This document shows positions 1 through 24,635 of a stretch of 55,312 nt of DNA, one piece after another (within the stretch, counting starts at the first letter, position 1; every line of letters starts with the position of its first letter). This DNA comes from a virus. Below the pieces are notes generated by a model. That model did no database searches. It worked only from the letters and a program-made list of their open reading frames with translations, and was not told the origin of the DNA. Position numbers and translations under genes: made by a program. The stretch spans positions 1-55,312 of the IMG/VR virus record IMGVR_UViG_3300020182_002848; one strand, 5' to 3'.

Positions 1-306
1 ACAGGTGATGATGTTATGTCTGCAGGATCAAATACATCAGGATATGGTAATAGAACATTATTTGGTCCTGAAGGAGCAATAGCATTAAATAATAAAGATA
101 CAGTTATAGCAGGTACAAATTTATTTCCTAAAGGAAATGATGTAGTATCAGGGCCTGCAGGTTCTGTACAAATGCCAGATAATTCAGAAGCTAAAAGAAC
201 AAATGCTTTACTATCAAAACTTATTAACAGACCTGATCCTGTAATCGAAATGAACGGTGATAAATTAGGTACAGCTATTGGGAAATATGCTTATTCTACT
301 CAATAA
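1..306 (+). CDS. C-terminal part of a tail protein, possibly tape-measure (partial)
   Basis: The reading frame is open from the first base, so the Met at base 16 is probably internal and the gene starts before the window. The visible 102 residues include a Gly-Pro-Glu-Gly stretch followed by LNNKDTVIAGTNLF. This glycine/asparagine-rich type of tail is common at the C-termini of phage tape-measure and other tail proteins in Bacteroidota phages. No membrane segment or enzyme motif is visible. It lies directly upstream of baseplate-type genes, which supports a tail role. The exact identity is an inference. Confidence 0.5.
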   Translation, partial: TGDDVMSAGSNTSGYGNRTLFGPEGAIALNNKDTVIAGTNLFPKGNDVVSGPAGSVQMPDNSEAKRTNALLSKLINRPDPVIEMNGDKLGTAIGKYAYSTQ

Positions 307-330
307 ACTATACTTTTACAATATTTATAA
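307..330 (+). promoter_or_regulatory. Candidate late-promoter-like motif ATATTTATAA
   Basis: The gap between the first two genes holds ATATTTATAATAAATG about 30 bases before the next ATG. The core ATATTTATAA recurs in gaps near 16031, 18594, 19531, 49436 and 53111, mostly before structural or envelope genes. It contains the reverse complement of the T4 late box TATAAATA. Promoter function is an inference from this recurrence. Confidence 0.4.
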
Positions 331-360
331 TAAATGTTTAACAATTAAAAATTCAAAATT

Positions 361-543
361 ATGCCTTTACTTAAAAAACTTGAAACTGAAGGATCTGTAT
401 TGACCCCATTACAAGGTCAACAACCAGTATCTTCATTACAATCAGGAGCAATTCCAGTAAATAATACATTCTCAAAAGGAACGTATGTTGATTATGTTTC
501 TGAAACACCAAGAGCAGTAGATACAACAGGTAACGTACAGTAA
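361..543 (+). CDS. Small hypothetical tail-region protein, 60 aa
   Basis: I do not recognise this protein. It is short and polar, with no signal peptide, membrane span or cysteines. It starts MPLLKK, and the next gene starts MPLI; both lie in the tail gene block. The stop is three bases before the next ATG, so the two are co-translated. Its place between a tail protein and a large baseplate-type protein suggests a small virion component or assembly factor, but nothing in the sequence proves it. Confidence 0.6.
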   Translation: MPLLKKLETEGSVLTPLQGQQPVSSLQSGAIPVNNTFSKGTYVDYVSETPRAVDTTGNVQ

Positions 544-546
544 CCT

Positions 547-2562
547 ATGCCCTTAATTAATCGAAGAACCGACCTTAAATCCTTAAGGTATGGAAGTGAT
601 AGAATAGATAATGGTTCAAGTAACCAACCTTATGTCAAATCTTCTATACCAAGTGGATCCGGCCCGGGTCTAGGCGATGCTGATTTCCTCTTAAGAGGGG
701 GATCATTATTACCTAGAACTGTGGGAAGGGATGTTTCTAGGTTAACACAAATGATGTTTGATTTTAAATCTCCAAATGGACTTTTATTTTCAGTAAAACA
801 GAATCTTTTATCAAGATCCGCTGTTAACCCAATGGCGACTTCAAATGATGGTTCTGTAATAAACCTGTTAAGTAACCCTAATAAGTTACCTTTAAATAAT
901 GGTATTTACTTACCAACATCAACTATACTACAAGCAGCTGCAAACCCTTTAGGGGGACATTTACTAAAACAGGGAATTAACCCTTTTAAAAGTACTAATG
1001 ATGTTGCTAAGGGTAATATCTTATCTACAGGGTTTGGACCTGATTTACCTTTATCTATGCCCATTTACTTGGATACAGATGCTTACAATGAAAGAGTAAA
1101 TACACAAGGAGAACCTACTAGTAGATTATTATCTTTTACAAATTCCTTTATAAAAAGGGGAATAAATGATCCATTTGAAGATACACCTGGTTATTTTGTT
1201 TTAAATAATGACCCAAATCTTTATTCATACTCAGGAGGTCCTGGGTCAACATTGGGAGTAGGAAAAACAATAGTTCCTATAAAAAGTAGAACAGGAGTAA
1301 ATAATCCATTTTTAGCTGGGTATAAATCTAAAACTGATAGATTTTTTAATAATTTTAAAAAAATAGGTAGTGGAATTAATGCCTTTGAAGATTATTCAGT
1401 ATTTAGTAAACCAAGATCAGTAAATTTTCAAGGTGCAAAGATATTTAATGGTACATTAAGTACAGTATATCAAAATATTACTAACACCGATTTATTCCAA
1501 AACCAATTTAAAAAAGTAAATAGTGATACTAGTGCCTTAAGAACAAAAGATAATAGTGTTTTCCAATCAGGTTCATTTGACCCACAAGCACCTTCAGTTG
1601 TTCCCGGCTTATCAGATACTCTTAATTACAACCAGTTAATGGTTGCAGGTAATTCTGGATCTGTAGATAATGCCATATTACAAGATTTTAGACAAAATAC
1701 AGAAAATAGAGATATAAAACCTAAATCTATAGACTATACATCTCCTAATCAAAGGTTAGATGGCAGAGTCAATCTAGGTTCCCCAGGATCAAAATTTGAA
1801 AGAAAAAGCTATGTAATAGGAAGAGGTACATCATTAGATAAAATTAATTCTTTACCTTTATATCAATCTAGTAAAGTTGATAATCAAAAAACAGTAAATG
1901 ATTTATGTAAATTTAGAATAGGTATAGTTAATAATAATGACCCTAACTTAAAAACATATATTCATTTTAGAGCCTTTTTAGATGGTATGGATGATTCTTA
2001 TGCTGCTGAATGGGCTTCTCAAAAATACATGGGAAGAGCAGAAAGTTTATATAATTATCAAGGATTTGATCGCACCGTTAATTTATCCTGGACAGTTGCC
2101 GCGCAATCAAAACAGGAATTAATACCTATGTATAAAAAACTAAATTATTTAGCATCTGTTTGTGCTCCTGATTATTCAGATTCTGGGTATATGAGAGGTA
2201 ATTTAATAGAACTAACAGTTGGTGGTTACATATATGAACAAATGGGGATAATGCAAGGAATTAGTTACACTGTACCTCAAGATTCTCCATGGGAGATAGG
2301 AATTAATGATTCTTCAATAAATACAGAGGGATTTGATAAAAATAGATCTGATGATACTGTAAAAGAATTACCTATGATGATTAAAGTATCAGGCTTTTCA
2401 TTTAAACCCATTCAAAACTTTGTACCTAATAAACAAATTAATACATTCCAAGAGGTTGGAAATGAAGGACCTAATTCAAATGGAGATATAGCTGGGTATG
2501 GTCCACAACAATTTATATCATTAAAAAATAGTCGAAGTAATAATTACGATTCAAATGGGTAG
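547..2562 (+). CDS. Large tail/baseplate structural protein, 671 aa
   Basis: A long protein rich in Asn, Ser and Gly, typical of phage structural proteins, without signal peptide or membrane span. The most conserved-looking part is residues ~455-620, with FRAFLDGMDDSYAAEW, then KYMGRAESLYNYQGFDR, then a repeated aromatic/beta pattern and the motif LTVGGYIY. This block is familiar from tail-tube or baseplate-associated proteins of marine T4-like phages. The gene overlaps the next one by 8 bases, and that gene is LysM/gp53-like, so both probably belong to the baseplate. I cannot tell whether it is the gp48, gp54 or another equivalent. Confidence 0.65.
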   Translation: MPLINRRTDLKSLRYGSDRIDNGSSNQPYVKSSIPSGSGPGLGDADFLLRGGSLLPRTVGRDVSRLTQMMFDFKSPNGLLFSVKQNLLSRSAVNPMATSNDGSVINLLSNPNKLPLNNGIYLPTSTILQAAANPLGGHLLKQGINPFKSTNDVAKGNILSTGFGPDLPLSMPIYLDTDAYNERVNTQGEPTSRLLSFTNSFIKRGINDPFEDTPGYFVLNNDPNLYSYSGGPGSTLGVGKTIVPIKSRTGVNNPFLAGYKSKTDRFFNNFKKIGSGINAFEDYSVFSKPRSVNFQGAKIFNGTLSTVYQNITNTDLFQNQFKKVNSDTSALRTKDNSVFQSGSFDPQAPSVVPGLSDTLNYNQLMVAGNSGSVDNAILQDFRQNTENRDIKPKSIDYTSPNQRLDGRVNLGSPGSKFERKSYVIGRGTSLDKINSLPLYQSSKVDNQKTVNDLCKFRIGIVNNNDPNLKTYIHFRAFLDGMDDSYAAEWASQKYMGRAESLYNYQGFDRTVNLSWTVAAQSKQELIPMYKKLNYLASVCAPDYSDSGYMRGNLIELTVGGYIYEQMGIMQGISYTVPQDSPWEIGINDSSINTEGFDKNRSDDTVKELPMMIKVSGFSFKPIQNFVPNKQINTFQEVGNEGPNSNGDIAGYGPQQFISLKNSRSNNYDSNG

Positions 2563-2857
2563 ATATTCAGGAGTAATAACAAAAAGCACAGTTGGAGGAA
2601 AGAGGTATAAAAAAACAGTAAAATACCCTAACATTCCCCTAAGTTTTGATGATATCTATGTTTATACAGAGATACTTGATAGATTTGACATATTAGCTCA
2701 ATCTTATTATGGCGATCCACAACTATGGTGGGTAATTTCAATAGCTAATCCTCAATTAGAACAAGGCTCAATATACCCACCAGAGGGAATACAGATAAGA
2801 ATTCCGGGGAATATTGGTGGAATAATATTATCTTATGAGAAATTAAATGGAATTTAA
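2555..2857 (+). CDS. Baseplate wedge gp53-like / LysM-type protein, 100 aa
   Basis: The centre of this protein reads FDILAQSYYGDPQLWWVISI followed by Ala-Asn-Pro. This is the LysM-like signature of small baseplate proteins, of which T4 gp53 is the best-known case. It then has an Ile-Pro-rich end, as in LysM domains that close with a hydrophobic strand. In T4, gp53 links baseplate wedges around the hub. The gene overlaps the upstream structural gene by 8 bases and is followed after two bases by the hub-like gene, a tight baseplate operon. No cysteines or signal peptide are present. Confidence 0.7.
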   Translation: MGRYSGVITKSTVGGKRYKKTVKYPNIPLSFDDIYVYTEILDRFDILAQSYYGDPQLWWVISIANPQLEQGSIYPPEGIQIRIPGNIGGIILSYEKLNGI

Positions 2858-2859
2858 TT

Positions 2860-5800
2860 ATGGCCGGAAATATAATAGGAGAACCAATAGATGCAACTAT
2901 ACTCGAGCAAATAGATAACAGACAATCTGTTAGTGGTGCTGGATATAATAGTAGTTCTATTCCAAGATCTCCTCAAGTTTTAAATTTTTTAAATAATAGA
3001 AGTTCTTGGGTAAAAATGGCTTCTGGTGTTTCTTTAGAAGAAGATGCCTTATTTCAGTTAGAAGAAATATCAAAACAAGAAGGAGGATACATTAGTGAGG
3101 ATGAAATTCAAAATCTTAAAGGTACAAGCTTAGCTAAAAATTTAGTATTATTCAATACAATCCAATCCTTTGATGCCCAGGGTAAAAAGGAATATACCCC
3201 AAGAAGTGGAGTTAGAAATGATAATTTACTTCAAAATAACCTTGGTAAAATGTATGGTGGTTTGGGTGGTAATTCCCAAGGATTACAACCTATAGGAGGT
3301 ATTACTGATATTAGTGTAGAGAATATTAATAGGGGATCGATTGCAAAAGCAACAGTAAATATTAAAGTATATAATCGTTTCCAATTTAATTTAATAGACT
3401 TAGCTTATTTAAAACTAGGTTATATAATGATGTTAGAATGGGGTTGGGATAAATATATTGATAATGTTGATAAAGAAAATAATAGTGTTACTATTAAGGA
3501 TATGCCTTATACCATAATTGAAAAAGAATGGTTTGATGGAAAAAGTTATACCCAAAAAAATATCTTAAATTTAATTAATCAAAAAAGATTTCAACATAAA
3601 GGAAATTATGATGGGTTTTTTGGTAAAGTATCTAATTATACTTGGAAAGCAAACCCTGATGGTAGTTTTAATATAACTATAGATTTAATTACCTTAGGTA
3701 GTGTAATAGAATCCCTAAAAGTTAATCTATCTCCAGAAGTACCTATTGATGAAGCAACACTTAAAAATAATCAAAAAAAGTTAGCTGAATTATTAGATGT
3801 AGACGAAGGAGAAGAAGGAGAATATGATAGCCCCTTAATTAATAATATGGGAGGAGATAAATTATCTATATTTTTATCTTCAACTGTAGTTAATTTCCCT
3901 GAAAAAAACTTAGATCATGTTTTTTTACCTGCTTTAACAACAGAACTTATTCCTTTATCATACGGTAATATAGCAACAATAGGTGCCATCCCAGTAGTGG
4001 GAACGTTGGCTGCTCCCGCCTTAGCACTTGCCAAATATTTAACTTCTTACACAGGTAATATTCCTGAAGAAGATCGTTATTTTGTAAGATTAGGTTTATT
4101 TTTAGATAAATTAAAAGGATTAACTATCCCTTATGTAAAAAATGGGGATTCATTAAAACAACCTTCTTTAGATGTAGATACTGGTGTAACTAATAATATT
4201 TGTAATTATGTTACTAATTTAATACCCTTAGATCCTTCTATATGTGTTTTTTCAATTCAATTATCTGAGGAATATGATAGAATAACTTATTTAGATGTCC
4301 CTAAATATAATTCTAATATGCGAACCTTTGCAATTAACAATGATGGGGTAGTATATGGACAAATAATGAATATTAACATGAATATTAATTTTCTTCAAAA
4401 AGCTATTGTGGATAATGTTGATAAAGATGGTAATTTAACTTTATTTAGTTTATTAGAAACTATATGTGATGGGATAAACCAATGTACCGGAGGAGCTACT
4501 ATGTTAGAACCTGCTATTAAAAATGATAATATCATATATATATTAGAACAAAACTCAATTAAGGGTTTCGGATTTGACAAAACAGATACAGCCCCAATAG
4601 ATATCCAAGGATACTCAGAAAATGGTCAATCAAATTTTGTACAAGATTTTTCATTTAATACCAAAATAACCCCTGATATGATGTCAATGATATCAATTGG
4701 AGCGACAGCTGAGGGAATTGATAGCAGACAAATAAATGCTTCTCCTTGGAAAAAATGGTATAAAGGAGTAAAAAATAGATTTGAGGAATCTTATGTAACT
4801 AAAGATAAGACAGTTGCAGAACCTTCTTTAGCTGAAAGGTGGCAAACACCTGAAAAAACAATTATAGCTAGGTTTAAAAGTGATCTTTTAGCTGGAAATA
4901 TAGATTATGACCATATTGCTCTTGCAGGATATGATTGGGAATGGAATAATCACGATTTAGCAGATATAGACCCTCCTGGTGCTTTTAATAGTGGGTTTTT
5001 TACTAGTAATAAAACAGCAGCAGATGAGTTAATTGGTAAGGATGGTATATTATCCCCACTAGCACAGGAAGTTGTAAGAAGAGTATGGGAAGTTGAAGAT
5101 GAAGATTATGAATTCCAAGTAGCAAATAATCTTACTGTAGTAGCAGATGAAACTGATGTACCTGAAGGTGAAGAATATAAACAATATTTTGTAAATGCCT
5201 TTGGTGGTAAAACGGGAACAGCGGATAAAAGAACTTTTTGGCCTGGTTATAGAGAGCTAGATGTAGATAGGGACGATAGTTTATGGTGGTATGGTAAGGA
5301 TAATAGTGATTTTATTAATAGAGGTAAAACTGCATTTAATACCTATATTGCCGACATAAACAATGCAGAATCTAAAGCAAACCCAGATAATGCCGCTAGT
5401 ACTAATGGTTTTATTCCTGTTGAGTTAGGTTTAACAGTAGATGGTATAAGTGGAGTAAAAGTATACCAAAAATTAGAAGTAACTCAAAGATTTTTACCTG
5501 TATCTTATAGTAAAGCATTAAGATTTGTTATACGTGGGGTTAACCATAAAATAACAGGTAATCAATGGATAACAGATTTAAAGACCATCTCTACATCTAT
5601 AAGTGATATGAAATCTAATGTTGAAGCTAAAACTACTTATAAGAAGAAAAAGACTAATTCTACGGCTCCTAAAACACCCGTTAAGATAATAGGTCCTTTA
5701 CCTCCAAAAAATCCAAACGACAAATTAAAAATTTATGATAATAGGACAGTAGCAGGAATACCTTATGACCCAAATACATACGGATCATACCAGAGTATAG

Positions 5801-6252
5801 ATTGGTTAGTTGGTGAGATGAATAAAAATACTCAAGATCAATGGAGAGGATTTTTAAATGCTTTAAACGAAAGATATCCTGGATATGAATTAAAAATTAA
5901 TGCTACTTATCGTACATATCAAAGATCAATAGAATTAAAGGCTATCAACTCAAGCAATGCTACTCCTGGGAAATCACCTCATAATTATGCCTTAGGTGTA
6001 GATATGAATGTTAAGGATCCAAACGGTAAAGTTTATCTTAAAAAGGACTATAGCTCTTGGAAGGCATCAGGAATCCCAGAAATTGCAGTTAAAGAATTTA
6101 AAATGAGATGGGGAGGTGATTTTAGTGGATACTTAGATTGTGTTCATTTTGATGTTTCAAGAGCAACTCCTACTATACTAGCAAACGCTAAAAAAGAAAA
6201 CCCAGGTCTCCCTCAAAAACAATGGGATACTCAAAATACTAGCTTAACATAA
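2860..6252 (+). CDS. Baseplate hub-like protein with C-terminal M15 peptidase domain, 1130 aa
   Basis: The N-terminal ~950 residues are Asn/Asp-rich phage structural sequence, including a beta-type block near residues 150-200. After a Lys/Pro linker around residues 925-960 comes a domain with the M15 (VanY/L-Ala-D-Glu peptidase) metal sites: SPHNYALGVD at ~1040 (the SxHxxGxAxD motif) and DCVHFD at ~1093. Such enzymes cut the peptide stems of peptidoglycan. Fused to a hub-type protein, it would open the wall during injection, the job done by gp5 lysozyme in T4. The stop overlaps the next ATG. The peptidase call is strong; the hub call rests on position and size. Confidence 0.7.
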   Translation: MAGNIIGEPIDATILEQIDNRQSVSGAGYNSSSIPRSPQVLNFLNNRSSWVKMASGVSLEEDALFQLEEISKQEGGYISEDEIQNLKGTSLAKNLVLFNTIQSFDAQGKKEYTPRSGVRNDNLLQNNLGKMYGGLGGNSQGLQPIGGITDISVENINRGSIAKATVNIKVYNRFQFNLIDLAYLKLGYIMMLEWGWDKYIDNVDKENNSVTIKDMPYTIIEKEWFDGKSYTQKNILNLINQKRFQHKGNYDGFFGKVSNYTWKANPDGSFNITIDLITLGSVIESLKVNLSPEVPIDEATLKNNQKKLAELLDVDEGEEGEYDSPLINNMGGDKLSIFLSSTVVNFPEKNLDHVFLPALTTELIPLSYGNIATIGAIPVVGTLAAPALALAKYLTSYTGNIPEEDRYFVRLGLFLDKLKGLTIPYVKNGDSLKQPSLDVDTGVTNNICNYVTNLIPLDPSICVFSIQLSEEYDRITYLDVPKYNSNMRTFAINNDGVVYGQIMNINMNINFLQKAIVDNVDKDGNLTLFSLLETICDGINQCTGGATMLEPAIKNDNIIYILEQNSIKGFGFDKTDTAPIDIQGYSENGQSNFVQDFSFNTKITPDMMSMISIGATAEGIDSRQINASPWKKWYKGVKNRFEESYVTKDKTVAEPSLAERWQTPEKTIIARFKSDLLAGNIDYDHIALAGYDWEWNNHDLADIDPPGAFNSGFFTSNKTAADELIGKDGILSPLAQEVVRRVWEVEDEDYEFQVANNLTVVADETDVPEGEEYKQYFVNAFGGKTGTADKRTFWPGYRELDVDRDDSLWWYGKDNSDFINRGKTAFNTYIADINNAESKANPDNAASTNGFIPVELGLTVDGISGVKVYQKLEVTQRFLPVSYSKALRFVIRGVNHKITGNQWITDLKTISTSISDMKSNVEAKTTYKKKKTNSTAPKTPVKIIGPLPPKNPNDKLKIYDNRTVAGIPYDPNTYGSYQSIDWLVGEMNKNTQDQWRGFLNALNERYPGYELKINATYRTYQRSIELKAINSSNATPGKSPHNYALGVDMNVKDPNGKVYLKKDYSSWKASGIPEIAVKEFKMRWGGDFSGYLDCVHFDVSRATPTILANAKKENPGLPQKQWDTQNTSLT

Positions 6253-7091
6253 TGTATTATCCAAAATCTCAAATATTACCTAATTTATACACTAATGGTG
6301 AAGAATATATTTATTCATCAAATAGTAAAGAATATATAGGTTCTTATTTTGCAACTGCTGATGGTAAATTTTTTACAGGAGTTAACCCAAATGATAAACC
6401 TAACCATAGATTAACCCCATTATCAAATACCCCTGAAAGTAAAGACCCAACATATCAATCAGAAGATATCCCAGAAGATTACTATGTAATAGATGATTAT
6501 TATTATTATGCTAAAGGGGTAAATATATTTAATATGGGAACTCCACCACCTCTCCCTAAAAGCGCATTCCCAACTCCATCTCAAAAAGATTATGAAATAG
6601 GTGAAATTCAAAGGTATTTTATTAAAAAATATAATGAAGTATTATATATAGAAATTGATAAAGAAGATTACCCTAAATATGTTAAAAGAACACAACAAGT
6701 AAATTCTAGCTTATATTTACCCTTTACACTTCCTTGGATTATAACAGGTAATAGAAAAGAGGCATTTAAAATAAATAAAGCATCGGTTAATAGAATAGAA
6801 AGAAATAATTCAATACAAGGTTTTAAATCCTACTTTAAAGGAAGATTTGACCAATTATTTAAATATTCTAAAAATGAAAACTTGTACACTGAAGGGAAAG
6901 AATATAGATTATCTTCAAATGGTAAATTTTATAAAGGTTATTATCATATCCACCCACAAAAGGGAGCAATGGAAGGAAGACAACATACAAATACCCCACA
7001 TAATATATTAATACCTGTTAGTGGTTCAAATACTCAATTTATAGTTAATAAAACAGAAACACAAGTAATTAATAAATCTAGTGGTTATTAG
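6252..7091 (+). CDS. Tail-region protein with an internal repeat, 279 aa
   Basis: Two diverged copies of one module are visible. Residues ~12-57 begin LYTNGEEYIYSSNSKEYIG and residues ~211-256 begin LYTEGKEYRLSSNGKFYKG. The second copy continues with YYHIHP and a His-rich stretch ending PHNIL. Between them is a Pro-rich and basic region. I recall similar YxGYYHxHP modules in virion genes of Bacteroidota phages, but their function is unknown to me. The ATG overlaps the stop of the hub-like gene and the next gene has its own promoter, so this is the last gene of the tail operon. Confidence 0.6.
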   Translation: MYYPKSQILPNLYTNGEEYIYSSNSKEYIGSYFATADGKFFTGVNPNDKPNHRLTPLSNTPESKDPTYQSEDIPEDYYVIDDYYYYAKGVNIFNMGTPPPLPKSAFPTPSQKDYEIGEIQRYFIKKYNEVLYIEIDKEDYPKYVKRTQQVNSSLYLPFTLPWIITGNRKEAFKINKASVNRIERNNSIQGFKSYFKGRFDQLFKYSKNENLYTEGKEYRLSSNGKFYKGYYHIHPQKGAMEGRQHTNTPHNILIPVSGSNTQFIVNKTETQVINKSSGY

Positions 7092-7112
7092 ATAAAGGTT
7101 TCGTATATTCAA
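7081..7112 (+). promoter_or_regulatory. Promoter of the common 20-bp-spacer type, copy 1
   Basis: GTGG at 7081 is followed, after 20 bases counted from GTG, by TATATT at 7104-7109 in the context TTTCGTATATTCA. This is the same geometry as ten other copies in the window. It overlaps the end of the upstream coding region. The ATG of the polymerase gene follows 18 bases after the TATATT box, behind the leader AATAAGGTTAT. Confidence 0.65.
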
Positions 7113-7127
7113 GTAAAATAAGGTTAT

Positions 7128-8399
7128 ATGTACTGGCTTGTAGAAAACAGGGAACAGTTAAATGTTTTAATAAATAGTAGTTATAAAAAAGCGTTCATTG
7201 AGGTAATACCCTTTAATGACACAATACACCCCGTACTAAATCGTGTAAGTTTAGTGTATATTAGACCACTTGAAGCAACAAAAGGCTTTATGGTATGTAT
7301 TGCACATAGTGAATCTTTAAATGTATTAAACACGGGTATAGACAAATTAATAGAAAAATTTGAAGTGTTGTATTGTCGTGATAAAAAGGAAATGTTACAT
7401 TATTTTCCAAACAAAACTCTTTATGACATAACACCACCTCCTCATACGTATATACGTCCTACAACACAAACCCACGATTTATACTACCGTAAACATCAAG
7501 ATAACCGCGAGTTAAACTTAATTATACCGATTGTTAAACACTATGAATTGTGTGAGACGATTTTTAGAGATCTAAAAGCGAATATTAACATAGAAAAAAC
7601 AAAATATGATGAATTCTTTAACAATAAAGTATCCTTGGTATTCAACGCTATCGAGAGAAATGGAGTACGAATACACAATAAAACCTTCGAAGAATATTTC
7701 CATCCCGTTGATGGTGAATACGTCTACACTCAGTTCAACTTAAAAACAACAACAACAAGACCATCAAATAAATTTAAAAATGTAAATTATGCCGCACTTA
7801 ATAAAGAAAACGGATGTAGAAAAAGTTTTATACCACGTAATAATAGGCTTGTGGAAATTGACATCAGCGCTTACCATCCTAGCTTGTCTGCTCGCCTTAT
7901 TGGTTATGATTTTGCCAATGTTGATATTCACGCTCATTTTGCAACCCTATATGGAGTGGATTATAAAAAATCGAAAGAACTTACCTTCAAACAGCTCTAT
8001 GGAGGCGTTTTTGATAATTACAAAGGCTTGGAATTCTTTCAAAAAATCGAAAAATACGTATTAAGTCTCTGGAGTAAGTTTGAAAGCGACGGGTTTGTAG
8101 AATGTGAGGTTTCTGGATATAGATATGAAAAGGAAAAATTGCAAAATATGAATCCGCAAAAACTCTTTAATTATATATTACAAAATTTGGAGACGTCAAT
8201 GAATGTTCGTATATTATGGGATATGTTTTGTATACTAAGAAATTGCAAAACAAAATTGGTATTATATACTTATGATTCGTTTTTATTTGATTTAGACGAT
8301 AGTGAGGAAAATATACTAGAAGAAATTAAAAATGTATTTAAAAAATACAAATTAAATATTAAAGAAATAGAAGGTTATGATTACAATTTTACAGAATAG
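7128..8399 (+). CDS. Divergent family A DNA polymerase (palm/fingers), 423 aa
   Basis: The C-terminal half carries polymerase A landmarks in order. TTTTRPSN near residue 208 resembles the TGRLSS motif. LVEIDISAYHPSL near 242 is motif A, with Asp-Ile-Ser in place of Asp-Tyr-Ser, followed by DIHAHFA. KELTFKQLYGG near 283 aligns residue for residue with the O-helix KAINFGLIYG of E. coli Pol I, keeping Lys, Phe, Tyr and Gly. YTYDSFLFD near 380 is motif C. The N-terminal ~170 residues show no recognisable exonuclease motif, and the protein is short for Pol I. T4 has no such gene; this phage also encodes a family B polymerase. It may act in repair or special synthesis. Confidence 0.7.
   Translation: MYWLVENREQLNVLINSSYKKAFIEVIPFNDTIHPVLNRVSLVYIRPLEATKGFMVCIAHSESLNVLNTGIDKLIEKFEVLYCRDKKEMLHYFPNKTLYDITPPPHTYIRPTTQTHDLYYRKHQDNRELNLIIPIVKHYELCETIFRDLKANINIEKTKYDEFFNNKVSLVFNAIERNGVRIHNKTFEEYFHPVDGEYVYTQFNLKTTTTRPSNKFKNVNYAALNKENGCRKSFIPRNNRLVEIDISAYHPSLSARLIGYDFANVDIHAHFATLYGVDYKKSKELTFKQLYGGVFDNYKGLEFFQKIEKYVLSLWSKFESDGFVECEVSGYRYEKEKLQNMNPQKLFNYILQNLETSMNVRILWDMFCILRNCKTKLVLYTYDSFLFDLDDSEENILEEIKNVFKKYKLNIKEIEGYDYNFTE
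8186..8218 (+). promoter_or_regulatory. Possible internal copy of the common promoter
   Basis: Inside the polymerase gene, TTTGG at 8186 is followed at the usual 20-base distance by TTCGTATATT, with TATATT at 8210-8215. The match is as good as the intergenic copies, but here it also encodes protein. It could serve the downstream hypothetical gene at 8377. Chance or codon constraint cannot be excluded. Confidence 0.3.
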
Positions 8400-8844
8400 A
8401 ACCAATACGTATAATGCGAATTATGATGTTATAAAAGACATCCAAAACGCAGGAGATTTGAATAATAAATTATTTTGTACGTTTACAGACCTAGATGGTT
8501 TAGACGCACTTATTGAAGATATACAGTCAAAATATACAATTATATACAACAAAATGTTTGTCCTCGAGATCGTGGGTAAAGATGAATATGTTGTAACTTA
8601 TAATGTAGACCAAGGAAATGTACATACAATACCAGATAATACTATTTTAGTACATAGAAAAAAGGAATCTAATACCTTATACACAATTAATGCCCTTAAC
8701 GAACTTATTAAAAAGTTAAATGGTGGTGTAGTAGACACTAAATATAAAGTAGATTGGCAACATTATAGAAATTGTGTTTTACTTACACAGCACAATGATT
8801 TAAATCAATTAAATACAAAAATACATAAAATAATCGAAGTATAA
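8377..8844 (+). CDS. Conserved-looking hypothetical protein, 155 aa
   Basis: The gene overlaps the polymerase gene by 23 bases in another frame and begins MITILQNRTNTYN. It has alternating alpha/beta character, one Cys near residue 32 and no membrane span or signal peptide. The C-terminal part, with LYTINALNELIKKLNGG followed by a VDWQHYRN segment, has the look of a conserved domain that I have seen in marine T4-like phage hypotheticals. I know no function for it. The tight overlap suggests expression with the polymerase. Confidence 0.65.
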   Translation: MITILQNRTNTYNANYDVIKDIQNAGDLNNKLFCTFTDLDGLDALIEDIQSKYTIIYNKMFVLEIVGKDEYVVTYNVDQGNVHTIPDNTILVHRKKESNTLYTINALNELIKKLNGGVVDTKYKVDWQHYRNCVLLTQHNDLNQLNTKIHKIIEV

Positions 8845-8877
8845 TTTGGTTCCCCAAATTCCATTTCGTATATTAGG
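8845..8877 (+). promoter_or_regulatory. Common promoter, copy 2, before the SSB gene
   Basis: TTTG at 8845-8848, a 20-base spacer starting GTTCCCC, then TATATT at 8869-8874 in TTTCGTATATTAGG. The SSB start codon lies 42 bases downstream, leaving room for a leader. This is an intergenic copy with good matches in both boxes. Confidence 0.65.
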
Positions 8878-8916
8878 TTACATATAAACAGTTATAATTA
8901 AAAATAAGTTACAATT

Positions 8917-9750
8917 ATGGATTTAAATGCACTAAAGCAGAAATTGGATACCCTCCAATCCAAACCACAGGGTCAAAAAACAGATTACTCAACCATTTTT
9001 TGGAGACCTACAGTAGGTAAACAGCAAATTAGAATCGTACCATCAGCGTATGATGCTTCAAACCCATTTACTGAGTTGAAGTTTTATTATGGTATTACTA
9101 ATAAGGTAATGATTTCACCTACTAATTTTGGTGAAAAAGACCCAATTGCTCTATTTGCTGGAAAACTACGTGAAGGTGAGTATAATAAAGAGAACTATGT
9201 GTTAGCTAAAAAGTTAGATGCTAAAAACCGTATTTTCGTTCCTGTAGTAGTACGTGGAGAAGAAGATAAAGGTACTAGATTATGGCAATTTGGAAAGCAA
9301 GTATATGAAGAATTATTAGCACTTGCTGTCGATGATGAAATTGGAGATTACACTGATATTGTAAATGGTAGAGACCTTACAGTTGAAACAGTAGGACCAG
9401 AATCAACTGGTACTCCTTATAATAAATCATCAGTACGTGTTCGTTTAAAAACTTCTCCACTTAGTGAAGATGCTTCTCAAGTAGAAGAATGGACAAATAA
9501 ACAACCAAACCCAAAAGATGGTTTATTTAAACGTTTCAGTTTTGATGAAATGAAATCAGCGTTAGAAAAATGGTTATCACCAGAAGAAGATTCTGAAGAA
9601 ATCGTAGCAACACCCGTTACATCAACACCAAAACCACCTTCAAATTTTAGTTTAGATACTAATCAAGCTAAACAAAGCAAGGTAGATAAATTTGATTCTT
9701 TATTTGACAGTAAAGATAGTACTAACGAAGTTGATGATCTACCTTTCTAA
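8917..9750 (+). CDS. Single-stranded DNA-binding protein, gp32-like, 277 aa
   Basis: The order IFWRPTVGKQQIRIVP, then a beta-rich core with FVPVVVRG and WQFGKQVYEEL, matches the gp32 family of T4-like phages, which coats single-stranded DNA during replication and recombination. The tail after residue ~205 is acidic and disordered and ends DDLPF, the type of tip SSBs use to bind partner proteins. T4 gp32 holds a zinc ion through Cys and His residues. This protein has no cysteine at all, so that zinc site is absent. It heads the replication operon uvsX, rnh, helicase and has its own promoter. Confidence 0.85.
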   Translation: MDLNALKQKLDTLQSKPQGQKTDYSTIFWRPTVGKQQIRIVPSAYDASNPFTELKFYYGITNKVMISPTNFGEKDPIALFAGKLREGEYNKENYVLAKKLDAKNRIFVPVVVRGEEDKGTRLWQFGKQVYEELLALAVDDEIGDYTDIVNGRDLTVETVGPESTGTPYNKSSVRVRLKTSPLSEDASQVEEWTNKQPNPKDGLFKRFSFDEMKSALEKWLSPEEDSEEIVATPVTSTPKPPSNFSLDTNQAKQSKVDKFDSLFDSKDSTNEVDDLPF

Positions 9751-9752
9751 AT

Positions 9753-10826
9753 ATGGCAAGAAAACCATCGAAGTCTCTCTCGGCGGCAGTGTCCGCCGAG
9801 ATTAAGAGCAAATTTGATTTAAATAAGTTTAAATCGTCTAAAGGTTTAGATAAAAACGTTAAATTTAAGGAACAAAAATGGATACCATTATCTCCTGCTT
9901 TTCAAGAAATTGCTGGAGTACCTGGAGTACCAATGGGACATATTTCATTACTTAGGGGACACTCTGATACAGGAAAAACAACTGCTCTACTTGAAGCAGC
10001 AGTATCAGCACAAAAAATGGGGATATTACCTGTTTTTATTATTACTGAGATGAAATGGAATTGGGAACATGCCGCTCAAATGGGATTAGAAGTTAAACTA
10101 ATCAAAGATGATGAAGGTAATGTTATTGATTATGAAGGAAACTTTATTTATGTTGATAGAGAAACTTTACATACTATTGAAGACGTAGCAGCATTTATAA
10201 TGGATCTACAGAATGAACAGAAAAAAGGTAATTTACCGTATGATTTAGCATTTTTCTGGGATAGTATTGGATCAATTCCTTGTGCAATGTCAGTTGAAAA
10301 ATTGAAAAATAACAATGAATGGAATGCGGGAGCAATGTCAACACAATTTGGTAACACGGTTAACCAAAGTATTGTAATGTCTCGTAAAGAATCATCACCA
10401 TATACTAATACTTTAATTTGTATTAATAAAGTATGGACTGCCAAAGCAGAATCACCTATGGGACAACCAAAAATGATGAACAAAGGTGGAATGGCAATGT
10501 GGTATGATGCAACATTTGTAGTTACATTTGGAAATGTCTCTAATGCTGGAACATCTAAAATTAAAGCAATTAAAGGTGGTAAACAAGTTGAATGGGGTAA
10601 AAGAACAAACTTACAAATTGATAAAAACCATGTTAATGGTATGCAGTCAAGAGGTAAAATTGTTATGACAAACCATGGATTTATCCAAGATACAGATAAG
10701 GATAAAAACAACTATAAGAAAGAACACTCAGATGAATGGACTAAAATCTTAGGTGGTGGAACATTCAAAATTGTAGAAGACCAAGAAGATGTAACCCCTG
10801 TACTTTACGACGTACAAGACTTATAA
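9753..10826 (+). CDS. uvsX: UvsX/RecA-like recombinase, 357 aa
   Basis: A RecA-fold strand-exchange protein. Walker A is GHSDTGKTT at residues ~69-77. A Walker-B-like strand reads LAFFWDSIGSIP near 165. The segment GGMAMWYDATFVVTF, then TNLQIDKNHVNG, fits the UvsX branch seen in T4-like phages rather than cellular RecA. It would promote recombination-dependent replication and repair together with the SSB three bases upstream. The length is close to T4 UvsX. The first residues are rich in Lys and Ser. Confidence 0.85.
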   Translation: MARKPSKSLSAAVSAEIKSKFDLNKFKSSKGLDKNVKFKEQKWIPLSPAFQEIAGVPGVPMGHISLLRGHSDTGKTTALLEAAVSAQKMGILPVFIITEMKWNWEHAAQMGLEVKLIKDDEGNVIDYEGNFIYVDRETLHTIEDVAAFIMDLQNEQKKGNLPYDLAFFWDSIGSIPCAMSVEKLKNNNEWNAGAMSTQFGNTVNQSIVMSRKESSPYTNTLICINKVWTAKAESPMGQPKMMNKGGMAMWYDATFVVTFGNVSNAGTSKIKAIKGGKQVEWGKRTNLQIDKNHVNGMQSRGKIVMTNHGFIQDTDKDKNNYKKEHSDEWTKILGGGTFKIVEDQEDVTPVLYDVQDL

Positions 10827-10834
10827 ACAAAAAC

Positions 10835-11875
10835 ATGAAACACAAAGAGTTATTTAATCTTCTGGATGATATCCAGGAAGATCAGGAGATCCCTACCCAA
10901 AATAGACACGACAGAGTATTAATCTTAGATGGTTTAAATTTATTTTTTAGAAATTTTGCTATGATGAATATGGTTAATCCTGATGGAGTTCATATTGGTG
11001 GGTTAGGAGGATTCTTTCGCTCTTTGGGTGCTATGATTAGACAAACAAATCCAACTTCTGTTTATGTAGTATTCGACGGAGCAGGTTCAACAGTAAATCG
11101 TAAGAACCTGCTCTCCGAGTACAAGGGAACAAGAAATTTATCTAGGATTACTAATTGGGAAGCATTTGATAACATTGAGGAAGAACATGACTCAAAAATC
11201 GACCAAATTGTACGTATAATACAATATCTAAAGCTATTACCTGTTAAAACCACCATACTCGATAAAGTAGAAGCGGATGACATTATAGCCGTGTTAGCTG
11301 AAAAATTAGTAGAAAAACACGATTCAACTTGTTTTATAGTATCTAGTGATAAAGATTTCCTACAGTTAGTAACAGATAAGATTATTGTTTATAGGCCAAT
11401 GGAAAAAGAATATTATACTCCTAAAACTGTAGAAGAAAAATTTGGTTTAAAACCCTCTAACTTTATTTTACACAAAACACTATTAGGAGATAGTTCAGAT
11501 AATATCCAAGGTATTAAAGGATTAGGTGCAAAAGGTATATTTAAAAAATTTCCTGAATTAAAAACCCATGATTTAACTTTAGATGATATTTTCGACATAT
11601 CTGCTAGGAAGTTCAAGGACCATGTTGTATATTCCCGCATTGTTCAAGAACAATCTAGGATTGAAACTAATTACAAAGTTATGGATTTAAGCACTCCAAT
11701 GATTGATGATAAAGGAAAAGAACATATAGACAATTTAATAGATGAAGATTTACCTGAATTTAATTCTGAAATGTTTATCTCATTTTACAATGAAGACAAA
11801 CTAGGAGGAATGATCAGAAATTTAGATTCATGGTTAAAAGATATATTTGCTCTATTTCCAACTTATGAAAAATAA
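10835..11875 (+). CDS. 5'-3' exonuclease / RNase H-like flap nuclease, 346 aa
   Basis: The sequence has FEN-family acidic motifs: VLILDGLNLFFRNF near residue 25, VVFDGAGSTVNRK near 80, VEADDIIAVLAE near 148 and IVSSDKDFLQLV near 170. The helix-hairpin-helix region is LGDSSDNIQGIKGLGAKG near 220. T4 Rnh, of this family, removes RNA primers and flaps from lagging-strand fragments. The gene sits between uvsX and the helicase, matching a replication role. It begins eight bases after the UvsX stop. All expected aspartates appear to be kept. Confidence 0.85.
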   Translation: MKHKELFNLLDDIQEDQEIPTQNRHDRVLILDGLNLFFRNFAMMNMVNPDGVHIGGLGGFFRSLGAMIRQTNPTSVYVVFDGAGSTVNRKNLLSEYKGTRNLSRITNWEAFDNIEEEHDSKIDQIVRIIQYLKLLPVKTTILDKVEADDIIAVLAEKLVEKHDSTCFIVSSDKDFLQLVTDKIIVYRPMEKEYYTPKTVEEKFGLKPSNFILHKTLLGDSSDNIQGIKGLGAKGIFKKFPELKTHDLTLDDIFDISARKFKDHVVYSRIVQEQSRIETNYKVMDLSTPMIDDKGKEHIDNLIDEDLPEFNSEMFISFYNEDKLGGMIRNLDSWLKDIFALFPTYEK

Positions 11876-11886
11876 AAAGGTTATAA

Positions 11887-13260
11887 ATGACATTAAATAG
11901 TATAAATCAGTACGGACATGATTTTCAAATTAAAGTATTATCGTCTCTGTTAACTCATAAAGAATTCCTTACGAATATTCATGATATTATATCAGAAGAA
12001 TATTTCGAAAACCAGGCACAAAAATGGGCGATTAAAGAGGTACTTAACTATTATGATAAGTACCATACTACTCCCTCATTAGATATATTAAAAGTAGAAT
12101 TACAAAAGGTAGATAATGAAGTACTACAGATATCTATTAAAGAACAATTAAAACAAGCATTTGTTAGCTCGGATGATGATTTAGAATACGTACAAGAAGA
12201 ATTTACTAATTTTTGTAAAAACCAACAATTGAAGAAGGCCTTAATGTCGTCTGTGGACTTATTGAAAGCAGGCGATTTTGATGGTATTCGTTTTATTGTA
12301 GATAATGCTTTAAAAGCAGGACAGGATAAAAATATAGGACATGAATATGTTAAAGATATTGAAGAACGTTATAGAGAAAATTCAAGAGAAACTGTACCTA
12401 CCCCTTGGGACAAAATTAATAACTTATTACAAGGTGGATTGGGAAATGGAGATTTTGGTCTCATATTTGGTAATCCAGGAGGTGGTAAATCTTGGTCATT
12501 AGTAGCATTAGGAGGACATGCTGTAAGATTAGGATATAATGTCTTGCATTATACACTTGAATTAGGGGAAGAATATGTTGGTAAAAGATATGATGCTTTT
12601 TTCACTAAAATCCCAGTTAATAAAATAGATTCTCAAAGAGAAAAAGTGGAAGAAATCATACCTCAATTGCCAGGTAAATTAATAATTAAAGAATACCCAA
12701 CAGGTAGAGCATCAGTCTCAACTATTGAGTCACATATTGCGAAAAGCACAAGTATGGGAGTTAAACCAGATTTGGTAATTATTGATTATGTAGACTTACT
12801 TTCATCAAGAAAAACAAATCGTGAACGTAAAGATGAAATTGATGATATTTATACAAGTACTAAGGGATTAGCTAGACAGTTAGATATACCAATTTGGTCT
12901 GTTTCACAAGTTAATCGTGCAGGTGCAAACGATAACGTGATACAAGGAGATAAAGCAGCAGGATCGTATGATAAAATAATGATAACTGATTTTTGTATGT
13001 CTCTCTCACGTAAAAAAGAAGATAAAGTTAACAACACTGGTAGATTCCATTTAATGAAAAATAGATATGGAATGGATGGAATTACCTTTGGTATTGAAGC
13101 TGATACTTCTACTGGACATTTTATAGTAAAAAATGAATATGTTGAAGGGGATGAACCTGAAGCAGCAGCATTACAACCACGTTCTAATAAATTTGATACT
13201 GATGTAGATAATTTCGATAAACAATTGTTACGTAAGAAATTTTTTGAATTAAATCCTTAA
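11887..13260 (+). CDS. DnaB-type replicative helicase, gp41-like, 457 aa
   Basis: An N-terminal helical domain (residues ~1-150) precedes a RecA-like ATPase core. Walker A is GNPGGGKSW at ~195. Walker B is DLVIIDYVDLLSS near 300, and SVSQVNRAG near 340 is the DnaB sensor/arginine region. DnaB-family helicases unwind the fork and recruit primase; T4 gp41 is the phage counterpart. The gene lies between the flap nuclease and nrdB in one operon. No primase domain is fused, and no primase gene is visible in the window. Confidence 0.85.
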   Translation: MTLNSINQYGHDFQIKVLSSLLTHKEFLTNIHDIISEEYFENQAQKWAIKEVLNYYDKYHTTPSLDILKVELQKVDNEVLQISIKEQLKQAFVSSDDDLEYVQEEFTNFCKNQQLKKALMSSVDLLKAGDFDGIRFIVDNALKAGQDKNIGHEYVKDIEERYRENSRETVPTPWDKINNLLQGGLGNGDFGLIFGNPGGGKSWSLVALGGHAVRLGYNVLHYTLELGEEYVGKRYDAFFTKIPVNKIDSQREKVEEIIPQLPGKLIIKEYPTGRASVSTIESHIAKSTSMGVKPDLVIIDYVDLLSSRKTNRERKDEIDDIYTSTKGLARQLDIPIWSVSQVNRAGANDNVIQGDKAAGSYDKIMITDFCMSLSRKKEDKVNNTGRFHLMKNRYGMDGITFGIEADTSTGHFIVKNEYVEGDEPEAAALQPRSNKFDTDVDNFDKQLLRKKFFELNP

Positions 13261-23656: not shown

Positions 23657-23664
23657 TATAAATA
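23657..23664 (+). promoter_or_regulatory. Exact T4-type late box TATAAATA
   Basis: TATAAATA lies just after the queC stop, 15 bases before the next small ORF and upstream of the structured RNA and the tRNA. It is identical to the T4 late promoter core. Only one other intergenic match on this strand was noticed (38660). Use as a promoter is an inference. Confidence 0.4.
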
Positions 23665-23830: not shown

Positions 23831-23923
23831 TAGAGAGACAGTAAAGCTGATTAAATTGAGATTATGGTAAAGGTTAACCACTCATTAACGCAGTAACCTT
23901 GAAAGACCCGAAATGTCTCTCTT
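23831..23923 (+). ncRNA. Candidate structured RNA with a perfect 9-bp closing stem
   Basis: AGAGAGACA (23832-23840) pairs perfectly with TGTCTCTCT (23914-23922), enclosing about 73 bases. Inside, AAGGTTA (23870-23876) pairs with TAACCTT (23894-23900) around a 17-base loop. TGAG (23857-23860) can also pair with CTCA (23881-23884) in that loop as a pseudoknot. The outer hairpin is followed by TTAAAA, not a T tract, so it is not a simple terminator. Five bases later a tRNA begins, so it may be processed with it. It fits no tRNA, preQ1 riboswitch or ribozyme consensus that I could apply by eye. Confidence 0.5.
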
Positions 23924-23927
23924 AAAA

Positions 23928-24000
23928 TGTCCTGTGGTGTAATTGGTAACACGTCTGTTTTTGGTACAGAAGAGTATAGGTTCGAGACCTGTCGGGACAA
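23928..24000 (+). tRNA. tRNA-Gln (anticodon TTG)
   Basis: The 73-base cloverleaf is complete. The acceptor TGTCCTG pairs with CGGGACA with one G-T pair. The D arm is GTGT/ACAC. The anticodon arm is TCTGT/ACAGA with loop TTTTGGT, giving anticodon TTG. The T arm is ATAGG/CCTGT with loop TTCGAGA, and the discriminator is A. CCA is not encoded. Gln CAA codons are very common in the phage genes, so the tRNA would support their translation. Confidence 0.93.
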
Positions 24001-24011
24001 CAAAAAGTTAT

Positions 24012-24386: not shown

Positions 24387-24635
24387 ATGAAAACAATCCT
24401 TTATTTTACCGCTTCATGGTGTGGTCCATGTAAAGCATTAGCACCTAGAATGGAAAAACTAGCAAGTCAAATTAATTATAGAAAAATTGATGTTGACTCA
24501 AATCAAGATATGTCTATGAAATATGGAGTTCGAAATGTACCCTCTTTAGTATTAGTAGATGAAAATGGGACAGAATTAAATAGGATGGTTGGAGTACAAC
24601 CAGATCAAGCAATCTTAAATTTTTATAATGGGTAA
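24387..24635 (+). CDS. Thioredoxin, 82 aa
   Basis: The active site WCGPC is at residues 11-15, the cis-Pro loop NVPSLVLV is near 51-58, and the last helix ends the protein at 82 residues, short but typical of phage thioredoxins. It would reduce disulfides in the cytoplasm; there is no signal peptide. Likely clients are the phage NrdA, whose tail has a CxxC pair, and other phage enzymes. It overlaps queD by 8 bases. Confidence 0.9.
   Translation: MKTILYFTASWCGPCKALAPRMEKLASQINYRKIDVDSNQDMSMKYGVRNVPSLVLVDENGTELNRMVGVQPDQAILNFYNG

Follow-up and report, generated by a model that had tools for sequence, protein, structure and literature searches.

A compact RNA of bacterial viruses that occupies tRNA slots, occurs in circularly permuted forms and may dock tRNAs

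The locus and the fold of the RNA element

The window, by which we mean the whole analysed stretch of 55,312 nt (positions 1-55,312 of the viral record IMGVR_UViG_3300020182_002848), encodes at 22833-26740 genes that, judged by sequence reading only, resemble queC, queE and folE, a set that fits 7-deazaguanine synthesis; a thioredoxin-like ORF lies at 24387-24635. The RNA element studied here occupies 23831-23923 on the plus strand. On one side of it lies a 48-aa ORF, itself downstream of queC, and on the other the gene for tRNA-Gln (UUG), which was called by ARAGORN at 23928-24001, scores 61.4 bits with the Rfam tRNA model and follows directly on the same strand. Both this location near queC and tRNA-Gln and the presence of a structured RNA agree with the original prediction, although the latter turned out to be larger in scope than that prediction supposed. 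The covariance model R1 scores the element at 72.1 bits (E 2.6e-11), the window copy itself belonging to the alignment from which R1 was built. The longest ORF across the element is an antisense frame of 50-51 aa. Thermodynamics alone makes the element only mildly unusual: its folding energy is -20 kcal/mol (z -2.16), and 6 of 200 shuffles fold equally well. The strong support is comparative, namely the R1 score and the covariation of the homologs. A ‘late-type box’ upstream, TATAAATA at 23657, had also been put forward; it lies about 170 nt away and has 16 matches in the window against 20.5 expected, and is thus no evidence for the element.

The fold consists of a closing stem P1, an internal loop with two highly conserved strands, a P2-P3-P4 stem, and a pseudoknot from the loop of P4 to the strand adjacent to P2. 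It was examined in an alignment of 68 sequences (A1), from which duplicates and a few chance matches had been removed. P1 is the 9-bp outer stem noticed earlier: its 5' arm AGAGAGACA (23832-23840) pairs as claimed with TGTCTCTCT (23914-23922; 3' arm UGUCUCUCU), and both sides change at 11 of 11 P1 pairs. The nested helices of the window copy read CTG/CAG (P2), TGAG/CTCA (P3) and TGGT/ACCA (P4) in the DNA. P2, formed by CUG (23847-23849) and CAG (23891-23893), is paired in 98.5% of the alignment cells and covaries at two of its three pairs. In the minimum free energy fold, P3 joins UGAG (23857-23860) to its complement CUCA (23881-23884), while P4 joins UGGU (23865-23868) to ACCA (23877-23880); between the window and L084 a U-A pair of P4 is swapped for A-U.

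The 7-bp ‘inner stem’ of the original prediction stands as far as its complementarity goes (AAGGTTA 23870-23876 with TAACCTT 23894-23900), but it is not a nested stem: since P2 is real too, this helix, between AAGGUUA in the P4 loop and UAACCUU after P2, is a pseudoknot. It is paired in 91.8% of cases, with both-side changes at two pairs. The swaps at one end run through GGUUA/UAACC, GGUUU/AAACC and GGUUC/GAACC, and at the other from AAAGG/CCUU to AAGGG/CCC. The covariation score over the 68 sequences is 0.380; shuffled controls give 0.186 and slid ones no more than 0.202. Two conserved strands face each other inside P1: the 5' junction strand GUAAAG (23841-23846; AGURAAG in the family), for which a T-loop-like role is possible, and the 3' junction strand GAAAGACCCGAAA (23901-23913), which together with the preceding ACCUU matches the 23S L1-stalk strand ACCUUGAAAUACC.

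A viral RNA family at tRNA slots

The 93 nt are very likely a single-copy member of a phage RNA family. A pattern built on the conserved single strands recovered copies in two further viral contigs, a broader 3' motif gave at least 120 matches in viral contigs, and more than 100 distinct copies were gathered from T4-like, T5-like, Vequintavirinae, jumbo, Herelleviridae, crAss-like and other phages. The family is found almost only in bacterial viruses: a strict pattern that has at least 120 matches in viral contigs occurs just twice among 84,980 genomes of bacteria and archaea, and one of these two cellular matches adjoins phage-like lysis genes. The plasmids searched gave no match. Searches of 30 whole records found exactly one element in 29; the whole record of Bacillus phage Eldridge, which carries a permuted form, has no match to the P1-type model. 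A permuted core was also observed in a bacterial metagenome-assembled genome (L248:547-620), just 5' of a tsaD-like ORF.

The isolate carriers, found by R1 and blastn, infect hosts that span several bacterial phyla. They include Klebsiella RaK2 and its relatives; Pectobacterium PM2 (T4-like); Escherichia G2469 (Mosigvirus); Morganella Rgz1, Erwinia Hena1 and Klebsiella KP12 (Vequintavirinae); Klebsiella KP13-26 of the Stephanstirmvirinae; Erwinia Hallingskeid and Pseudomonas Milchi; the T5-like My1, IME260 and PM135; and the Cellulophaga phages phi14:2 (Crassvirales), phi10:1, phi19:3 and Nekkels. Weaker or permuted matches come from phages of Rhizobium and Vibrio, Flavobacterium immuto, Bacillus Eldridge and one Zobellviridae phage. 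Blast matches of 19 nt in nrdD of Felix O1-like phages were set aside as most likely due to chance.

The element goes unannotated in the isolate phages inspected, and it matches none of the 4,227 Rfam 15 models at gathering or permissive limits; scans of the other copies returned no family except RNAs that enclose the element. Full-text literature searches did not find a description of such an RNA. Large lists of computed candidate RNAs exist (e.g. PMC8040213) and may include the family without name or function. We found no named family to which it belongs and regard it as a previously unnamed one: an RNA of about 90-130 nt that numerous large phages from several bacterial phyla carry and that Rfam does not list.

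The preferred setting of the element is among tRNA genes. A same-strand tRNA lies within 30 nt in 58 of 97 copies, and on both sides in 25. The median gaps are 1 nt from tRNA to element and 4 nt from element to tRNA, as compared with 6 nt between tRNAs; the element is thus spaced as a tRNA gene would be. A filled and an empty site are provided by G2469, where the element sits exactly between tRNA-Met and tRNA-Arg, and its relative RB69, where these two are adjacent. Among the isolate phages bearing the element, 18 of 21 have tRNA genes at the search cut-off and the other three show none. The suggestion of a processed small RNA is borne out to the extent that this is an independent, conserved, single-copy RNA occupying tRNA slots. 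It is not a degraded tRNA, being called neither by ARAGORN nor by RF00005 and having a different covarying structure. As for signals of its own, a promoter-like TAnnTTTG precedes 4 of the 62 copies that have no tRNA upstream, against a control rate of 3.9%, which is not significant; the T-run after P1 is uninformative (3.8 versus 3.4 T per 9 nt).

Other phage RNAs of tRNA arrays offer partial parallels. Phage T4 likewise encodes small stable RNAs without an assigned function, C and D, amid its tRNA genes, but these do not have the conserved core of the element; identity with either was rejected, R1 having no match in L205. On the minus strand of phage T4 (L205:3032-3128), the leader that separates trna.2 from tRNA-Gln has the same P1 arms as the PM2 element, TTATTAAC/GTTAATAA; they enclose a different core of about 60 nt, so that this may be an element that has decayed or been replaced. 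GOLLD RNA (RF02032) is also a phage non-coding RNA of tRNA arrays, but it is several hundred nt long, and no relation in sequence or structure was found. Both occur in L137, where one phage tRNA array (1-12600) holds 24 tRNAs, tmRNA, GOLLD RNA and the element.

Circular permutations and insertion into other RNAs

About 20 copies are circularly permuted, with the 3' half first and the AGUGAAG-CUG half second. In these, which include phi10:1, phi14:2, Eldridge, L112 and others, P1 is closed as a hairpin and the open ends lie at P3. The expected downstream half was found in 18 of 22 permuted copies tested, with no more than 2% of block-shuffled controls equally good. Natural circular permutations are otherwise recorded for the hammerhead and twister ribozymes, 5S rRNA and group II introns (PMC10085705). 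The hammerhead and twister ribozymes thus share with the element the permutation of one compact core, but differ from it in sequence and helix order. Several records (L101:2476-2584, L132:4510-4561, L172, L192) have the permuted element inside the loop of a hairpin resembling attC, AAGTAGTGGC...GCCATTACTT, a setting suggestive of an integron cassette.

The element is also carried inside larger RNAs. In Klebsiella KP12 it occupies 1188-1290 of L246, within a group I intron (RF00028, 1086-1390, E 2e-15). Four phage RNase P-like RNAs hold it exactly at the position of the specificity domain: in L189 it spans 12838-12940 within an RF00010 match at 12720-13005 (E 1.7e-15), and in G047 436-539 within a match at 376-654; L110 and L191 do not reach the RF00010 threshold and were identified from their alignment, which is like that of L189. 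Both L189 and G047 have the catalytic core and the conserved 3' region, with the specificity-domain columns unmatched; in the RF00010 alignment of L189 these include the columns of the homologous helices P7-P14. These cases may represent a single lineage.

With the specificity domain of bacterial class A RNase P (RF00010) the element therefore shares a position in those phage RNase P RNAs, one in which the window copy is not placed. Both are built of stems around conserved single-stranded junctions and have a GUGAA strand in common. The element differs in its pseudoknot and helix order, and is itself unmatched by every Rfam RNase P model. Two further phage RNase P RNAs were observed: one of about 235 nt with a bare long hairpin as its specificity domain (G052:C1:121410-121644; L321), and a near-complete one in a 177 kb viral contig (G054:C1:112110-112412; L322), which at 178 bits is above the Rfam cut-off.

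Possible tRNA docking and its alternatives

The best explanation we can offer, though we hold it with slightly less than even confidence, on the strength of the covariation, the single copy, the tRNA slots, the RNase P placement and a T-loop-like strand, is that the element is a portable tRNA-docking RNA domain. The specificity domain of RNase P docks the tRNA elbow via two interlocking T-loops, a motif common to the L1 stalk of 23S rRNA and the T-boxes (PMC4810234, PMC4919913). The internal loop adjacent to P1 may form such a pair of interlocking T-loops; since the L1 stalk, RNase P and T-boxes all use this motif to stack on the elbow, the element would in the same way stack on and dock tRNAs. 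In a comparison made post hoc, once the motif had been seen, the 3' junction motif ACCYYGAAANACC proved to occur once in the E. coli rRNA operon, at 23S 2163-2175, and 0.09% of permuted versions of the motif match anywhere in that operon. We take this stretch to be the L1-stalk T-loop strand that holds A2169. The 13-nt ACCUUGAAAUACC fits the family motif, and both structures are internal loops between two helices; they differ in the surrounding helices, the element being a small free RNA with a pseudoknot. Copies of the Vibrio type carry an extra hairpin in the 3' strand, placed between UGA and AAUACCC, as T-loops allow. Of the two strands that would face each other as T-loops, the 3' strand matches the L1 stalk and the 5' strand fits only partly. 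The GUGAA of the latter is found again within the conserved GUGAAA of RF00010, and its variants in proteobacterial phages, AGUAACGC, GAGUACGC and AGAAACGC, show no clean T-loop fit.

That the RNA grips tRNAs is thus a plausible but tentative reading of its sequence. It is possible, if somewhat more doubtful, that the RNA is a free-standing domain for gripping tRNAs, which occurs alone in tRNA arrays, takes two circularly permuted forms, replaces the specificity domain in phage RNase P RNA and serves to control tRNAs in infection. The enzymes that normally process tRNAs would release the element from the tRNA transcript, and it would act in trans. In phages with the element in RNase P RNA, precursor tRNA would be docked in cis, in place of the specificity domain; elsewhere the free element may, in the infected cell, hold or shield tRNAs of phage or host, or sequester them. 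Counting against docking are the group I intron copy, in which it has no obvious role, the three element-bearing phages that show no tRNA at the search cut-off, and the variable 5' strand. If docking holds, this would be the fourth natural RNA class with that device, of which reviews of the motif anticipated further cases among non-coding and viral transcripts (PMC4919913, PMC4810234), and the reason for which phages carry tRNA arrays could then be tested directly. Irrespective of docking, circular permutation together with domain swapping in RNase P RNA is rare and informative.

We rank the alternatives in the order protein-binding decoy, trans-acting specificity domain, ribozyme and riboswitch. 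A portable aptamer or decoy for a host or defence protein, rather than for tRNA, could be carried in any stable RNA scaffold, be it a tRNA array, RNase P RNA, group I intron or attC-like hairpin. Such a decoy fits the single copy and near restriction to viruses noted above, the gain or loss between close relatives, the occurrence in unrelated phages of several host phyla and the stem-borne insertion into unrelated RNAs. However, no protein partner or defence link was identified, and the specificity-domain position in RNase P and the preference for tRNA arrays are left unexplained; we consider it somewhat unlikely. The element might instead be solely a co-factor of tRNA maturation, a free specificity domain given in trans to the RNase P of host or phage. 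Some phages do have it fused to RNase P RNA, while the RNase P RNA of G052 is without such a domain and the element is separate but adjacent there, in a tRNA-Tyr/tRNA-Phe slot about 440 nt upstream. But 35 of the 40 element-bearing records searched are without an RNase P RNA match and host RNase P already has its own specificity domain, and such a role appears improbable.

A new self-cleaving ribozyme with a permutation-tolerant core is quite unlikely. The highly conserved junction strands and pseudoknot would suit one, and the circular permutations, with open ends in P1 or P3 like those of the hammerhead and twister ribozymes, keep the ribozyme-like part of the original prediction in play; yet 5S rRNA and group II introns are likewise permuted (PMC10085705), the element occurs once per genome, and no Rfam ribozyme model matches it. 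Self-cleavage is further disfavoured because it would be harmful inside the group I intron and the RNase P RNAs, where the element is intact. Least probable by far is the proposed cis-acting riboswitch for preQ0/preQ1 or another 7-deazaguanine, despite the nearby queC in the window and a compact pseudoknotted fold that resembles aptamers. Most copies lie beside or between tRNA genes, without a protein gene to control. On the basis of 80 queC loci and close relatives we reject a queC-linked riboswitch: the element is within 4 kb of queC at only 11 of them, where it lies downstream of queC and not consistently 5' of queuosine genes. The closest queC relatives lack both the element and tRNA-Gln, and L012 has tRNA-Gln without the element; hence the queC neighbourhood is incidental.
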